The position numbers and the translations under genes are program-made. Shown in pieces: positions 49,643-56,873 of a stretch of 64,000 nt of DNA; positions within the stretch are counted from its first letter, which is position 1; each line of letters begins with the position of its first letter. The DNA comes from Fusobacterium varium (GTDB lineage Bacteria; Fusobacteriota; Fusobacteriia; Fusobacteriales; Fusobacteriaceae), in assembly GCA_002356455.1 (NCBI GenBank), contig AP017968.1:2666001-2730000 (forward strand), written 5' to 3'. The notes under the pieces were generated by a model. The model worked only from the letters and a program-made list of their open reading frames with translations. It was not told the DNA's origin and ran no database searches.

Positions 49643-49677
49643 GTCACAGTTTAGTTCTTTAAACTGTGACTTTTTTA
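49643..49677 (+). terminator. Terminator of the lysine riboswitch expression platform
   Basis: GTCACAGTTT / AAACTGTGAC stem (49643-49652 with 49661-49670) followed by TTTTTT, 64 bp before the transporter start. Confidence 0.9.
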
Positions 49678-49740
49678 TTTTATAATTTTTTTCAAAAACA
49701 TATTTTTATATTAAATAAAAACATCTTGAGGGAGGAAAAA

Positions 49741-51147
49741 ATGTCAGAAAATACTACTAGAAAAAAATTTACAATGCCACACACTTATGTGATAATTGGA
49801 ATCATTCTTGTTATACTAACTATTTTAACTTATATTATACCAGCAGGTACATATGAAAGAGCTGTAGACCCTGTTTTAAACAGAACAATGGTTGTTCAGG
49901 GTTCATTCAAATATATCGAACAAACTCCTGTATCTCCATTCCATATGTTTATGGCAGTGGTAGAAGGATTAGTTTCTACTGCTGATATTATATTTTTCAT
50001 ATTCTTTGCTTATGGCTTTGTGTATCTTTTAATAAAAACTGGAGCATTTTATGGTTCTCTTGGTTCTCTTATTAAAAAATTCAATGGAAAAGAAACTATG
50101 ATATTTCCTATTTTTATGATAGTATTTGGTATCTGTGGCTCTACCTTTGGGCTTTATGAAGAAACTTATGGACTTCTTCCAGCTTTCATGGGAATATCTG
50201 TAGCCTTAGGGTATGATGCTTTAGTTGGTGGAGCTGCAGTTATCCTTGGTACAGCTACTGGATTCGCTGCTGCTACTCTTAATCCATTTACAATAGGAAT
50301 TGCACAAGGAATTGCAGAACTTCCTATTGGTTCTGGAATTGGTTTAAGAATTATATGTTTTATTGTTTTTCAAGGAAGTGCAATCATTTATCTTATGCTT
50401 TATGCAAGAAAAGTAAGGCTGCATCCAGAACTTTCAATTGTTAAAGATGTTAAATTTAATTTTTCAAATGGTATGAATCGTGAAGAGATGGAACAGCTTC
50501 CTTTTAATGGAAAACATAAACTTATCATGCTGCTTTTTGTTGTAACTATAGCTTTGCTTGTATATGGCACAAGTCAGCTCGGGTGGTATCTGAATGAACT
50601 TTCTACTCTCTTCTTTATTATGATGATAATTACTGGATTAGTAGGGGGCTATAACTTCAGTCAAATAGCTTCTCTTTTTATAGAATCAGTTTCTGATGTC
50701 ATATTTGGAGCAATGGCAGTTGGAGTAGCAAGATCACTTACTATTGTAATGGAAAATGGACATATAATTGATACTATAATTAATTTTATGGCTAGTACAC
50801 TTTCTACTATGCCTAGAACTATTGCTGCTGTTGGAATGGTGGTTGTACAAAATTTCATCAATTTTTTCATACCTTCAGGTTCAGGACAGGCAGCTACATC
50901 TATGCCTATCATGGCTCCTTTGGCAGATGCCATTGGACTTACAAGACAGACAGCTGTGCTTGCCTTCCAATTCGGAGATGGTTTCTCTAATATGTTTTGG
51001 CCTACATCAGCAGCTACTGTCTGTGGACTTATGAGTCTTCCAATAGAAAAATGGTATAGATTTATCACTCCATTATTTTTATTTATGTTCCTGCTGCAAA
51101 TTATATTTATGGTTATAGCAGTAGCAATTAATTATGGACCATTTTAA
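49741..51147 (+). CDS. YfcC-family transporter, probable lysine (or related) permease
   Basis: A 468-aa inner-membrane protein with ~12 helices of the YfcC/DcuC-like group (signatures LTYIIPAGTYER, FFAYGFVYLLIKTGAFYG, GSTFGLYEETYGLLPAFMG, IPSGSGQAATSMPIMAPLAD, GDGFSNMFWPTSA). Members are annotated as dicarboxylate or basic amino acid carriers. The start is ATG 49741 after GAGGGAGG. Placement behind a lysine riboswitch strongly suggests uptake of lysine or a lysine precursor. Ends in a terminator at 51161. Confidence 0.85.
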   Translation: MSENTTRKKFTMPHTYVIIGIILVILTILTYIIPAGTYERAVDPVLNRTMVVQGSFKYIEQTPVSPFHMFMAVVEGLVSTADIIFFIFFAYGFVYLLIKTGAFYGSLGSLIKKFNGKETMIFPIFMIVFGICGSTFGLYEETYGLLPAFMGISVALGYDALVGGAAVILGTATGFAAATLNPFTIGIAQGIAELPIGSGIGLRIICFIVFQGSAIIYLMLYARKVRLHPELSIVKDVKFNFSNGMNREEMEQLPFNGKHKLIMLLFVVTIALLVYGTSQLGWYLNELSTLFFIMMIITGLVGGYNFSQIASLFIESVSDVIFGAMAVGVARSLTIVMENGHIIDTIINFMASTLSTMPRTIAAVGMVVVQNFINFFIPSGSGQAATSMPIMAPLADAIGLTRQTAVLAFQFGDGFSNMFWPTSAATVCGLMSLPIEKWYRFITPLFLFMFLLQIIFMVIAVAINYGPF

Positions 51148-51160
51148 TATTTTAGAAAAA

Positions 51161-51192
51161 AAGGCTGCAGCTTCTGCTACAGCCTTTTCCTA
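51161..51192 (+). terminator. Terminator of YfcC-family gene
   Basis: AAGGCTG...CAGCCTT stem with inner CAGC/GCT pairing and a short T-run. Confidence 0.75.
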
Positions 51193-51314
51193 CTATTTAT
51201 GTATATATTATTTATAACTTCTATTCTTTTATTATCTTCCAATAAAAGATGTCTTCAAAAAAACGTCAACAGCGGTTTTGCCAGTTCTATCATAACTTTC
51301 TCCTGTTCTTCTTA

Positions 51315-54300
51315 TTAAAACCTATACCCTAAATTAATTCCTACTATCCATTCACCTTTAGTCTTATTCTTTCCAGATTGATTATGTGAATCTCTCTCTA
51401 TTGCATAGCTTCCCTTTACATCAAACAGAACTCCATTTTCTAGTTCAAGTGTATATTTAGCATTCAATCCTAAGCTATGTTCATTCTTATGAGCAACCAG
51501 TATATCAAAGTCACTTGCATTTTTTCCTTTAAATCTTCCTATGATATATTCTTCATCTGCACCATTAAGCAATCTTATATAGCTTATTCCTGCTGACAAT
51601 ATACTCTTTCCTTTTTCATGTGGTATCACTTTTTTCAGGTCTATTCCCACTTTGGCTGATGTATAATCAAATGATTTTGAATCTGTTTCTATTGCTAAAA
51701 TTCTGCTTCCTTCATCTGCTTCATCCTGTTTTATATATGTATATGACAGTGTTCCATAAGGCTCTAAGTATAGATTATCTCCAATATTATGAGAATATCT
51801 TCCATTCAAATAGATATCATATGCCATATCTGAATATTTCTCATCATAACTATGTCCACCTGTTGTTCTTCTGTCTGCGTCATACTCTGAATACTGTATT
51901 CCTGCTCCTGCTTTCAATGTTAGGTTTCCCTTGTAGTTTTCTATAAATGCTCCTATATATCCACTGTTTCCTTTTACTTTTGACATTGACAGTTCAGCTT
52001 CACTTTTATTTCCGCCTACTGCAACTCCTAATGATATATTTTCAGAATACCCATATTTACCCAGTACATAAGCTCCAGTAAGTTTCATATCCACATCTGT
52101 TTCCGCTGTTCCTCCATCAAACTTATGATAATTCTGTCCATAATATGTGTCTTTGCTTCCTCCATCTGCATGAGTAAGCCCACCCATTATCATCCATTTA
52201 TTTAATTCAGGTTTGAACTGGTTGTCTGCAACTATCTCCCTAAATATCCCCATTGATTTTCTTGATAATTCACTTGAGAATGAGTATGGAGTTTCTGTAT
52301 AGATACTTCCTAAGTAACTCATAAGAGTTTTAAGCTGTTCCTCATCACTCATATTTTCATCATAACTAGTTCCTAAACTTCCATTAGAAGCAATTAGTAC
52401 TCTTAAAGCATTTAAGTTATCATCTGTACTACTGTATATTCCTTTGTAGATATTATTTAATGAATTATATCTTTTTTGTGAAGGGTTAGAAGGTGTATCC
52501 ACTGCCTCTGATTTGTATATTTTATCTAAATGTAAATCATCTAAAGAAGTTCCTGCACTTAAGATTAATTCTTCTCCTTCTTTAAACACTGCACTGTCTA
52601 TTGCTGAGCTGGCTCTTATATACAAATTTTCTATATAAATATCTGTCATATCTATTTTTTCACGTTTGCCAATATTATGAGTTATAAAATTTATACTTCC
52701 TATTGTATTTTTGTCAGTTCCTTCACCAGTTATTACCAATTTTTCCCCATTATTTTGAAGTGCATGAGATGGTCTGGTTATTGGAAATCCATCCTCAAAC
52801 TCTGCATCTGCTAAATTTCCCGAAAAAGTATCAGTTAATCTTAGATTCAAGACACTATTTTCTCCTATTGTTATAGAATTTACACCTGTTATTGACATTC
52901 CTTCAAAAAGTGTCACATTACCTTTAATTCCAATATTATCAAATCCAGATATGTCATGTAATACATTTATTTTTTTAGCTCCAGCTGCTCTCATTCCTTC
53001 CATATTCTCAAAAAAATTAAGAGTATTGTCTTTTCCTAAAGCCTCTATTTTTCCATTGACAACAGAACCTCCAGAAAGAGTGACCTCATTATTATCTCCT
53101 TCAACTCTTATTACTGAAGTAATATTAATTACATCTTTATCCTTATAATTTCCATTAATAATAGAATTTTTTTCAAGAATAAGTTTATTATTATCTCCAA
53201 TTATTCCTATTGTAGGAAGTTCTATAGTTGAATCTAGTCTATCTCCTAGAGCTCCTCCATTAATTATAGAACTTTCTATTGTAAGTTTTGAATCTTCTGT
53301 CATAGTTATAGCCTTTCCATATGAATTAACCTTAGTATTTTCTAATTTTAAATCTGACTTTTCTTTCATATCTATTGCTTCATCATATCCATTAACTATT
53401 GAATTACTTACAACATTCCCTCTTTCTTCTATTACAAGAGTTTTTTCTACTCCATTAAGTATATGTTTGTTATAATTATTATTTCCATTTTTTAGTTCTA
53501 AAGATTTGTAATCAGTTATTTTTCCATCACCTTGTATTGTTGCTGCCACATTTAAAATTTTATAATTCTCTCCATTTATGCTTACTATTTTTTCTGCTCC
53601 AAAATTATTTTTATATTTATCTTTACTTTTATATACTCTATTTTCATCAGCTGTAAAAATCAATCCATTATTCTTTATTTCATTGCCATTCCCATCATTT
53701 TCTACAAAAGTAATCCCATCACTAACTACTTCATCTCCTCCGCTTATAATTAATCCATAGTTAGTTCCTGACTCTATTTTTCCAGGAACACCATAAGGAT
53801 AGCTATTATCAATAGCATATTTACTTCCATATATAATTCCATTATTCAATAGTCTTGAAATATTTCCATTTTGGATATATATTCCATATCCCTTTAACTT
53901 TTCACCACTAGGTTCATCATTATTAATTCCATATACAATTCCATTATTTAATATTTTTTGGTCAACCTTATTTGATTGTACAGAAAATGTTAAGCCTGAA
54001 CTTGTATTTCCTGAACTCTTTTTTATAGAATAAATTATTCCATCATTTTCTAAAATATCTAATTCTTTTGCTAAAACTCCATGTGACATATTGTTTCCTG
54101 TACTAGTTTCAAAAATCATCCCCCTATTTTTTATAATTCCATTCGTTCCTACCTCATGTACTCCTGCTATATTCCTGCTAGTAACACTTGAGTTTCCATA
54201 AATCATTCCACTATTCAGTAATTTAAAGTTATCTTCTCTGTTATATATACCTTTTCCATCTCCTTCATATGACTCCCCATAAATCAGTCCATAGTTAACT

Positions 54301-54920
54301 ACTTCTAAATTTTTTCCATAGTTGTCTATTCCATTTACTGCTGCTTGAGAAGGTGAATCTACTTTTGCTGAAATAATTCCTTCATTTTCTATATTTGTTT
54401 TCGTTATATTTTCATCTATTTTTATCCCTGAACTTGTCTGAATCCCTCTTTCTGAATAAATAAACCCATTGTTTTGAATAGTAAATTCTATAGCTGAGTC
54501 TGATATATTTATCCCAGTATTGTTTGAGCATTCCTCACTCTTTACCCCTATTACATTTTCATTTATAATTGTAAATTTTTCTTCCAATGAAGACAGTTTT
54601 ATTCCATAGGAATAATTAAGAGAACTAGAACCTTTTTCTGATATTCTTGAACTATTAATATATACATTATCTTTAAATGTATTATATTTATAAAATCCAT
54701 TTATAGCCTCTCCTATAGAAGTATTAGGTGATGCTCCACCTGATAATGCTGTAAAATTTATATTTCCATTTTCTTTTTTTATTTCTAACCCTGCCATCTC
54801 TTTTCCAGCACCTATGATGGTTGTGCATGACAGTAAAAATCCTATTACTGTTCCTATTGTTATATTGATGTTCCTCTTTTTATTGCTCTTTTTTAATGCT
54901 TTTATGACTTTATCAATCAT
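51315..54920 (-). CDS. Autotransporter outer-membrane protein 2 (large, phase-variation candidate)
   Basis: A 1201-aa type Va autotransporter. Long basic N-region (KALKKSNKKRNINITIG) and hydrophobic core (TVIGFLLSCTTIIGAG) form an extended signal peptide. The passenger has many repeats of the type NNGIIYG / NSGMIYGNS / NYGLIYGES spaced ~20-30 residues apart, i.e. a beta-helix. The barrel (~910-1201, from LNKWMIMGGLTHADGG) ends in NLGYRF. The start at 54920 follows GAGGGGG; the frame extends upstream to 54935. The region before it holds inverted recombinase-like sites around a promoter facing away. Predicted adhesin with on/off expression. Confidence 0.9.
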   Translation of the reverse strand: MIDKVIKALKKSNKKRNINITIGTVIGFLLSCTTIIGAGKEMAGLEIKKENGNINFTALSGGASPNTSIGEAINGFYKYNTFKDNVYINSSRISEKGSSSLNYSYGIKLSSLEEKFTIINENVIGVKSEECSNNTGINISDSAIEFTIQNNGFIYSERGIQTSSGIKIDENITKTNIENEGIISAKVDSPSQAAVNGIDNYGKNLEVVNYGLIYGESYEGDGKGIYNREDNFKLLNSGMIYGNSSVTSRNIAGVHEVGTNGIIKNRGMIFETSTGNNMSHGVLAKELDILENDGIIYSIKKSSGNTSSGLTFSVQSNKVDQKILNNGIVYGINNDEPSGEKLKGYGIYIQNGNISRLLNNGIIYGSKYAIDNSYPYGVPGKIESGTNYGLIISGGDEVVSDGITFVENDGNGNEIKNNGLIFTADENRVYKSKDKYKNNFGAEKIVSINGENYKILNVAATIQGDGKITDYKSLELKNGNNNYNKHILNGVEKTLVIEERGNVVSNSIVNGYDEAIDMKEKSDLKLENTKVNSYGKAITMTEDSKLTIESSIINGGALGDRLDSTIELPTIGIIGDNNKLILEKNSIINGNYKDKDVINITSVIRVEGDNNEVTLSGGSVVNGKIEALGKDNTLNFFENMEGMRAAGAKKINVLHDISGFDNIGIKGNVTLFEGMSITGVNSITIGENSVLNLRLTDTFSGNLADAEFEDGFPITRPSHALQNNGEKLVITGEGTDKNTIGSINFITHNIGKREKIDMTDIYIENLYIRASSAIDSAVFKEGEELILSAGTSLDDLHLDKIYKSEAVDTPSNPSQKRYNSLNNIYKGIYSSTDDNLNALRVLIASNGSLGTSYDENMSDEEQLKTLMSYLGSIYTETPYSFSSELSRKSMGIFREIVADNQFKPELNKWMIMGGLTHADGGSKDTYYGQNYHKFDGGTAETDVDMKLTGAYVLGKYGYSENISLGVAVGGNKSEAELSMSKVKGNSGYIGAFIENYKGNLTLKAGAGIQYSEYDADRRTTGGHSYDEKYSDMAYDIYLNGRYSHNIGDNLYLEPYGTLSYTYIKQDEADEGSRILAIETDSKSFDYTSAKVGIDLKKVIPHEKGKSILSAGISYIRLLNGADEEYIIGRFKGKNASDFDILVAHKNEHSLGLNAKYTLELENGVLFDVKGSYAIERDSHNQSGKNKTKGEWIVGINLGYRF

Positions 54921-54977
54921 CTTCTTCCCCCTCATAAAATAAATTTTAAAAACTAATTTTTTCTCTTAATAAAATAC

Positions 54978-55147
54978 TGTTCCCTTTAATATAAAAAGGC
55001 GAACAATAAAGTGCTTTCAACCTTTATTTTTAAGGTTCATTATTTTTTAAAATTTGTTTTTCTTCAATATTTGTATATTGATTTTTTAAAGTTTAAAGAG
55101 TATAATAGATATTATAAAGTGTTCGCCTTTTTATATAAAGAAGAACT
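54978..55147. promoter_or_regulatory. Candidate invertible promoter segment
   Basis: Two 28-bp sites face each other: site 1 at 54978-55005 (minus orientation) and site 2 at 55120-55147 (plus). Each is 11 bp + 6 bp + 11 bp, with arms TGTTCGCCTTT and about AAAGAAGAACT; both have the spacer TTATAT. The first 17 bases are identical. This is the architecture of tyrosine-recombinase core sites. The 114 bp between hold a promoter at 55078-55106 pointing right, away from autotransporter 2. Inversion would place the start ~92 nt before its ATG. A dyad operator is the alternative reading. Confidence 0.6.
55078..55106 (+). promoter_or_regulatory. Promoter inside the candidate invertible segment
   Basis: TTGATT (55078-55083), exact 17-nt spacer, perfect TATAAT (55101-55106), directed right. 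In this orientation it has no gene to drive before the terminators at 55403-55483. Confidence 0.7.
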
Positions 55148-55402
55148 AAAACTAATTTAGTAGTTTTTGAAAACTATCTTAATTTATAGTTTTAAATCAA
55201 TTATTTTTTATTTTATCTATTTAAAATTTTTCTACAAATGAACTTTTCTTTTTATAATCTCTCTTATCCATTTTTTTAACAAATAGAGATAATATTTATT
55301 TGTGATATACCCATAAAAAAATTTCCGCTGTAGTTATTCAATTCTATATATATTAAAAAATTATATCTAAAATTTCTCTTTATAATTTCCTAAAAAATAA
55401 AA

Positions 55403-55483
55403 ATGACTGAATAAATATATAAATTTATCCAGTCATTGGTCTAGAATCTGACACCTCAGCAGAGGTGTATTTTTATTTTTATT
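55403..55483. terminator. Two hairpins between the invertible segment and wzz-like gene 3
   Basis: ATGACTGAATAAAT / ATTTATCCAGTCAT (55403-55436) reads into a T-run on the minus strand and should end the wzz 3 transcript. ACACCTC-AGCA-GAGGTGT (55451-55468) is followed by ATTTTTATTTTT on the plus strand and should stop transcripts coming from 55113. Confidence 0.65.
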
Positions 55484-55493
55484 ACTTTTTTAA

Positions 55494-56306
55494 TTATTTT
55501 ATTCTGTCAATTTTCAGCATATTTTTCAAAGTATATTTTTCCCAAAATTCATATAAAAAAATTACTATTATTCCTAATATTATTCCACAAAAATTTATCA
55601 TTAAGAATTTTGATATAAAATTATCTTTTTCTTCCATAATTATAGAATCCACTTCTATCATATTTTCATATTTTCTTTGAAGTTTTAGCCCTGTAAGTAT
55701 TTTTAAATATTCTAAATCCTTATCCATAAATTTTTTTAATTCTTTTTTTCTGATAATATCCGTGGTCTTAGCTGCCTCTAAAGAAAGTACTTCAATATTT
55801 TTTATTATATTCTTTTCTTCTGCTATAATTATTTTTTCTATTCTTTCTGTTATATATTTATTTATTTCAAATAATATATTATCTTTTTCATTAAATAATT
55901 TTTCTCCATTTTCACTTTTTAAAGAATACATAATATTTTCTTTTTTTAAATTTCTTATCTCTATTATATTACTTCCCAAATCATATTCTTTTACATCTTC
56001 TATAATAAAATTATCTTTCTGTATTTTATCTTGTTTTATATATTGGGATATATTTTCTATATTCAATTGTGGAAATATAAGTCCTGATTCCTTGAATAGT
56101 TTATCTGATACTATTTTTTCTTTTCTTATATGAAACTTTATATCTAAAATATTTTTTCTGCTTTTATAATGAAAATATCCCAATATTACACTTATAACAA
56201 AAATTATAGAAATAATTAAAAAAAATACTCTTTTTCTTTTAAAAAAAATATCTGCAATTTCATAGATATCTATTTCTTCTTCATTTTCTATTTTATCTTT
56301 CTCCAT
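55494..56306 (-). CDS. Wzz-type chain-length determinant protein 3 (short)
   Basis: A 270-aa protein with the same plan as the other two Wzz-like genes: acidic EEEIDIYEIADIFFKRK, TM1 (RVFFLIISIIFVISVILGYF), periplasmic helices and TM2 (MINFCGIILGIIVIFLYEFW), then a basic tail. It is shorter than usual for Wzz. ATG 56306 with GGGG upstream is preferred over the frame start at 56330. It lies between recombinase-like sites 2 and 3. Confidence 0.72.
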   Translation of the reverse strand: MEKDKIENEEEIDIYEIADIFFKRKRVFFLIISIIFVISVILGYFHYKSRKNILDIKFHIRKEKIVSDKLFKESGLIFPQLNIENISQYIKQDKIQKDNFIIEDVKEYDLGSNIIEIRNLKKENIMYSLKSENGEKLFNEKDNILFEINKYITERIEKIIIAEEKNIIKNIEVLSLEAAKTTDIIRKKELKKFMDKDLEYLKILTGLKLQRKYENMIEVDSIIMEEKDNFISKFLMINFCGIILGIIVIFLYEFWEKYTLKNMLKIDRIK

Positions 56307-56873
56307 TGATGACCCCTTATTCACTTTCATTTTTTGCTAAAAAATTCATTCTAATCCTTTTTACTGTTTTCTAATATTTAAAAATATTATTTATAAATTT
56401 ACATTCCATCTGGCTATTTTAAAATTATTTTTCAATCATAACTATCTCTTTTCCAGAAAAAATTCAATTTATAAAAGTGTTCTTGTTTATGTATAAAAGA
56501 GAACTTTTTTATATTTTTTATCTGTTTCTAAAAAACTCTTTAAATGATTTTTTTCTTCTTTAATACGTTAAAATTTTATCTTTTTATAAAAAATAAAAAT
56601 TGATTATTTTATTTTTTCATGATATATATTACTTATTAGGAATAAAGGCATTTTTAGTATTTTTTATTCTAAATTATATGTACGTCTTTATACATAAAAA
56701 AGAACTCTAGTTTTTTTACTTTAATTTTCTAGTTTTTTAAAATTCTTTTTTCTATTCTTTTCTCTTTATCCTTTTCGTTTTTTATTTCACTCTGCTTAAC
56801 TCCTCTTAACTATTAATTTTCTATAATTTTTTCTATAATAATAATTATAAACTTTTCAGTTAAGGAGACAATA
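56307..56873. repeat. Intergenic region with recombinase-like sites 3 and 4
   Basis: 567 bp of AT-rich DNA. Site 3 (56478-56505) is TGTTCTTGTTT-ATGTAT-AAAAGAGAACT and site 4 (56679-56706) is TGTACGTCTTT-ATACAT-AAAAAAGAACT, both in the orientation of site 2. Outer arms and 11-6-11 layout match sites 1 and 2, but spacers differ. No ORF otherwise; several TATAAT strings lie just before the repA-like gene. Confidence 0.55.

Follow-up and report, generated by a model that had tools for sequence, protein, structure and literature searches.

The 64,000-nucleotide (nt) stretch of Fusobacterium varium DNA analyzed here (the window) carries at 54978–55147 an inverted pair of short sites that flanks a promoter beside the gene of a 1201-amino acid autotransporter. 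This element is very probably a phase-variation switch for the autotransporter, with a promoter inverted by site-specific recombination, and it probably belongs to one genome-wide system that toggles adhesins, surface sugars, and DNA-bending proteins. A preliminary description had read the locus as an invertible promoter. This reading is largely supported by the matched spacers of the sites and by flipped segments at homologous loci, although the window element itself was not seen in the ON orientation. The element is real, but it had been treated as one locus, and the system covers at least 26 loci in the window genome.

Architecture of the window element

The two sites are 26–28 base pairs (bp) long and of the form GTTCNNCTTT-N6-AAAGNNGAAC. 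Their arms lie at 54979–55005 and 55120–55146, separated by 114 nt, and deviate from the arm consensus by one and zero mismatches, respectively. Site 1 (reverse complement) reads TGTTCGCCTTTTTATATTAAAGGGAACA and site 2 reads TGTTCGCCTTTTTATATAAAGAAGAACT; the two agree over the first 17 positions and have the spacer TTATAT in common, as had been claimed. Inverted arms of ∼10–11 bp around a 6–8-bp spacer that matches between the partners are characteristic of tyrosine recombinase core sites. The window sites have this layout, which points to a tyrosine recombinase.

The enclosed segment contains a promoter (TTGATT-17-TATAAT) that is directed away from the autotransporter gene, again in agreement with the earlier claim (Table 1). 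The element thereby has the arrangement of an inverton, with inverted repeats around a promoter beside a gene. Once inverted, the promoter is predicted to lie at 55047–55019 on the minus strand. Virtual inversion about the spacer centers reproduced the transcription start previously placed ∼92 nt upstream of the autotransporter ATG.

The window holds four sites that make two pairs; in 60 windows simulated with its dinucleotide composition, three sites and no pair were found. Across the window genome (4.12 Mb in three contigs, with a chromosome of 3,965,155 bases), the site pattern matches 60 times (up to three mismatches, both strands counted), and the same pattern written backwards does not match at all. 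Therefore, the window pair is not a product of chance.

A genome-wide family of spacer-matched pairs

The window genome (G000, with contigs C1–C3) contains at least 26 inverted pairs, of which 24 were found by a systematic scan; the others are 2186014/2186165 and 2657860/2658012. One of the 24 has a decayed right site, and two further loci (134442 and 3940319) have a decayed partner. Apart from a handful that stand alone or whose partner is decayed, nearly all sites occur as inverted pairs with matched spacers. The sites are present in 4 of the 12 genomes of the genus, namely G000 and three relatives (G008, G009, and G010), and the same four are the only carriers in the family, the pattern being absent from its other 57 genomes (61 in all). 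A scan of viral contigs gave no match. We examined 87 pairs from these four genomes.

The 6-bp spacer is the same in both partners in 67 of 68 non-redundant pairs, and 14 different spacers occur. Random re-pairing within genomes gave a mean of 15.6 spacer matches and a maximum of 29. General similarity of the partners does not explain this identity, because the variable positions of the outer arms match in only 44–66% of cases. When pairs were picked by the arm consensus alone, the spacers still matched in 74 of 77. In two of the three exceptions, a third site present by chance is involved. The real exception (G010:C1:1564473–1564649, spacers ATACAT and ATCTAT) lies between tandem paralogues and has one parental spacer at either side, which suggests an exchange between neighboring loci. 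At the sequence level, a spacer that is variable among loci yet identical within each pair carries the signature of site-specific strand exchange.

A G/C-rich variant of the site (GGGCGC...GGCGGCT or GGCGCCC) recurs at G000:C1:134290, 3713498, and 3940472 and at G009:C1:1011567 and 3109672, in each case with the spacer of the partner retained. Either decay of the arm or a different mode of recognition may account for it.

Orientation at homologous loci

Comparison of related assemblies, which had been proposed as a check, revealed flipped segments at homologous loci. In two paralogous HU-like loci, G008:2099442 and G008:2279891, the left flanks match at 82% and the right flanks at 88%. The middle matches at 87.5% only if it is inverted at the spacers, and at 59% otherwise. 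Two loci from another genome, G009:108402 and G009:218373, share the orientation of G008:2279891, opposite to that of G008:2099442. G009:2212710 and G009:3783353 are also inverted relative to each other, if less sharply (78% versus 68%). The 85 other flank-homologous comparisons gave the same orientation.

Where the promoter of an autotransporter locus could be scored, it was OFF in ∼49 cases and ON in a single one (G009:958543). The middle of this locus matches six OFF paralogues at 70–76% when inverted versus 56–63% when compared directly; its flanks resemble theirs only in part. Within the site family, paralogous and orthologous loci thus show the segment both ways round between the same flanks, and the window copy is found in one orientation.

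Two loci in the window genome, 2186014 and 2657860, had been considered as ON states with half-site exchange, judging by GGC/AGC differences in the inner arm. Both were rejected, as the promoter direction is OFF at both, and arm letters alone were for this reason discarded as evidence of inversion.

Candidate recombinase

As stated in the preliminary description, no recombinase gene is found in the window; the enzyme is probably supplied in trans by a distant gene. Five open reading frames of ∼194–198 amino acids, located on the chromosome and on plasmid C2, constitute a single family of short tyrosine recombinases, with a relative on C3, whereas a separate 189-amino acid protein (1916827–1917396) is of a distant type. 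The catalytic R, HxxR, H, and Y of the 198-residue member align with those of solved Xer structures, and the protein has the size and composition of FimB and FimE (∼200 residues, catalytic domain only, R...HxxR...H...Y).

Full-length orthologues of the 198-residue protein occur at 96–97% identity in G009 and G008 and at 77% in G010, and hence in all four genomes with sites. The eight genomes of the genus without sites contain no relative above 50%. By this co-occurrence (at least 75% identity only where sites occur), the 198-residue protein is the best candidate for the enzyme, presumably acting in trans. We consider it rather unlikely that another recombinase, either XerC/D-like or of the 189-residue type, does the work of the 198-residue family. 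In favor of such an enzyme, every genome of the genus encodes several tyrosine recombinases, and no recombinase gene adjoins the window element; however, the 189–190-residue type occurs in most of the genus and, like the Xer-like genes, also in genomes without any site, which argues against it as the enzyme. Only the 198-residue type tracks the sites.

Downstream of the candidate gene lie small lipoprotein-like genes, genes for FadA-like adhesins (PF09403), and a pair of HU-like genes (L062 9969–14086), an arrangement conserved in G008. In a plasmid collection, the plasmid recombinase region matched nothing except a recombinase gene on a plasmid of Fusobacterium polymorphum (71%). No relative of the recombinase was found in a collection of genome contigs, from which near relatives of the window genome may be missing.

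Proposed mechanism and alternative explanations

In the proposed mechanism, a tyrosine recombinase would bind both quasi-palindromic sites and exchange strands within the identical 6-bp spacers, thereby inverting the ∼140-bp segment that bears the promoter. The likely enzyme would be the 198-residue protein or its paralogues, acting in trans. In the sequenced OFF state, the promoter would fire away from the autotransporter, with a transcript that reaches the plus-strand terminator (Table 1). In the ON state, transcription would start close before the autotransporter ATG, at the distance given above. The locus-specific spacers would keep recombination mostly within each pair.

Several observations weigh against this interpretation. 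The window element was found in one orientation only, and just 1 of the ∼50 scorable autotransporter loci is ON, so that inversion there would be strongly OFF-biased or rare. One genome of the genus, G003, has a 50%-identical recombinase but none of these sites. Furthermore, the four genomes with sites and recombinase may form a single clade, in which case their co-occurrence would count as few events.

That the system is real elsewhere and the window copy is a fossil locked OFF would account for its never having been seen ON, and decayed partners do exist at other loci (e.g. G000:134290 beside 134442, and 3940472). We regard this as quite improbable for the window, where both sites keep their arms and an identical spacer, and the promoter, the Shine–Dalgarno sequence, and the open reading frame are intact. 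It is very improbable that the sites are transcription factor operators, paired inverted repeats that loop DNA over the promoter without inversion: they are quasi-palindromic and flank a promoter, and nearly all autotransporter promoters share one direction relative to the gene, but this explanation predicts neither a central 6 bp that is variable among loci yet exact within pairs nor the inversion of precisely the stretch between the sites in otherwise collinear loci. A single repressor operator at many promoters, named earlier as a possible refutation, was rejected, because the motif occurs almost only in inverted pairs with matched spacers, an identity that argues against a repressor operator, and because inversions are seen between loci.

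Target genes and HU/IHF-like proteins

Besides autotransporters, the targets of the switches include genes for a glycosyltransferase-9 (heptosyltransferase-like), an MBOAT acyltransferase, a GGDEF diguanylate cyclase, and outer membrane β-barrel proteins; a sugar transferase gene lies on one side of switch 3528583. The switch pair at G000:C1:268521–268688 precedes a gene for a CHASE-GGDEF diguanylate cyclase, and levels of cyclic di-GMP (c-di-GMP) may therefore be phase variable as well.

In 49 of the 87 cases, the downstream genes include HU/IHF-like ones (PF00216), mostly arranged as tandem pairs; these immediately follow the switch in 20 cases and mostly follow the autotransporter in the others. 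The four site-bearing genomes have 58, 55, 56, and 48 PF00216 genes, versus 4–15 in the other eight. In contrast to the autotransporter switches, the HU-like switches occur both ON and OFF. It is conceivable, if doubtful, that these genes close a self-regulating network, in which a FimB-like recombinase flips at least 26 promoters in trans, and the outputs include tandem HU/IHF-like proteins that feed back on which other switches invert or fire, with few adhesins ON at once. If so, the expansion of the HU/IHF-like family to 48–58 members per genome would amount to a regulatory layer devoted to phase variation.

No site pair of the family was found at two D-MEM-induced autotransporters (PMC5720691), which probably belong to the 3300-residue class near 1.79 and 3.68 Mb, as placed approximately by locus-tag spacing.

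Other features of the window

The autotransporter (type V secretion) ends in the β-barrel domain that defines this class. Its likely start is the ATG at 54920, preceded by the Shine–Dalgarno region GAGGGGGAAGAAG. The terminator hairpins previously reported at 55403–55483 were found, one on each strand. No HU-like gene follows the window autotransporter. At the syntenic place in G008, between a 492-residue gene and the Wzz-like gene, there is neither an autotransporter nor a switch (L167 3906–6316 versus window 49666–56330), and therefore the two were probably gained or lost as one unit.

A second inverted pair, absent from the preliminary description, lies at 56479–56705 between the genes for the 270-residue Wzz-like membrane protein and a RepA_N-domain protein. 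It is probably a second phase switch. In G008, the switch of the Wzz-like gene is ON (TTGACA-17-TATAAT toward the gene), whereas the weaker promoter candidate of the second window element (TTGATT-17-TATATA) is directed away. This difference was rejected as an inversion, because the two segments are not homologous.

Table 1. Features of the window and candidate recombinase
Feature	Position	Strand	Remarks
Autotransporter (type V secretion), regulated gene, 1201 amino acids	51315..54920	-	β-domain residues 927-1164, Pfam PF03797, E 6.6e-26
Shine–Dalgarno region before ATG	54921..54933	-	GAGGGGGAAGAAG
Left recombination site, 26-bp core, outer arm toward gene	54979..55004	none	Spacer ATATAA at 54989-54994
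Invertible segment between the sites	55005..55120	none	Homologous segment, 77% identity, at G000:C1:3625767
Promoter TTGATT-17-TATAAT	55078..55106	+	Directed away from autotransporter (OFF)
Right recombination site, 26-bp core, inverted	55121..55146	none	Spacer TTATAT at 55131-55136, equals left one in inverted register
Terminator-like hairpin, 3' of Wzz-like gene	55402..55437	-	
Terminator-like hairpin, would end OFF-orientation transcript	55451..55468	+	
Membrane protein of Wzz-like layout, 270 amino acids, probable target of second switch	55494..56306	-	No Pfam or NCBIfam match
Second pair, left site	56479..56504	none	Spacer ATGTAT
Weak promoter candidate TTGATT-17-TATATA in second segment	56600..56628	+	Directed away from Wzz-like gene; motif also in homologous segments of G008, G009
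Second pair, right site	56680..56705	none	Left spacer inverted (ATACAT)
Candidate recombinase, 198 amino acids, catalytic domain only	G000:C1:1631168-1631764		PF00589 residues 11-183; paralogues 76% identical

Implications and comparison with known systems

F. varium Fv113-g1 has a 3.96-Mb chromosome, two plasmids, and 44 autotransporters, most of them of unknown function; its description reports RNA-seq and mentions neither phase variation nor recombinases (PMC5720691). If most autotransporters of 1000–1400 residues sit behind OFF-biased switches, single-culture expression data, adhesion assays, and antigen surveys of these gut bacteria would capture just one surface state out of a very large number. 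Matched spacers provide a simple sequence signature for detecting such systems, and the coupling of switches to an expanded HU/IHF-like family raises a new testable question, that of the coordination of many switches within a single cell.

The fim switch of Escherichia coli (FimB/FimE, fimS) shares with the elements described here the short inverted repeats around the promoter of a surface adhesin and a tyrosine recombinase of FimB size. IHF participates in fim switching (PMC11868660), and HU/IHF-like genes are abundant in these Fusobacterium genomes. In contrast to fim, the site is found at dozens of loci per genome, the spacers are locus-specific, and the window element has no adjacent recombinase gene.

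Mpi of Bacteroides fragilis is a serine recombinase that acts on capsule promoters. It resembles the system proposed here in that one recombinase acts globally on many promoters of surface architecture (Coyne 2003, listed in PMC11868660). Here, however, the candidate is a tyrosine recombinase, and the targets are mostly autotransporters and HU/IHF-like genes.

In the RecV-type systems of Clostridioides difficile, a tyrosine recombinase inverts several unlinked elements in trans. The Fusobacterium system likewise comprises multiple unlinked elements presumably inverted in trans. C. difficile switches face c-di-GMP genes (PMC11868660), as does the switch at G000:268521 with its GGDEF gene. The site sequence and the host phylum (Fusobacteriota) are different, and the loci per genome are far more numerous. 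Invertons from gut metagenomes (PhaseFinder studies) are also promoters bounded by inverted repeats near surface genes, but an inverton survey of defined communities does not mention Fusobacteriota (PMC11892184), nor does a review of phase variation mention Fusobacteria (PMC11868660).

We found no study of such a system in the literature searched for Fusobacterium and invertons, although an uncommented listing in the main inverton survey (Jiang 2019) is possible. The large switch system of this genus, not described in the literature searched, resembles fim or Mpi-type switching in its operation and stands out for its scale, its locus-specific matched spacers, and its coupling to HU/IHF-like genes.
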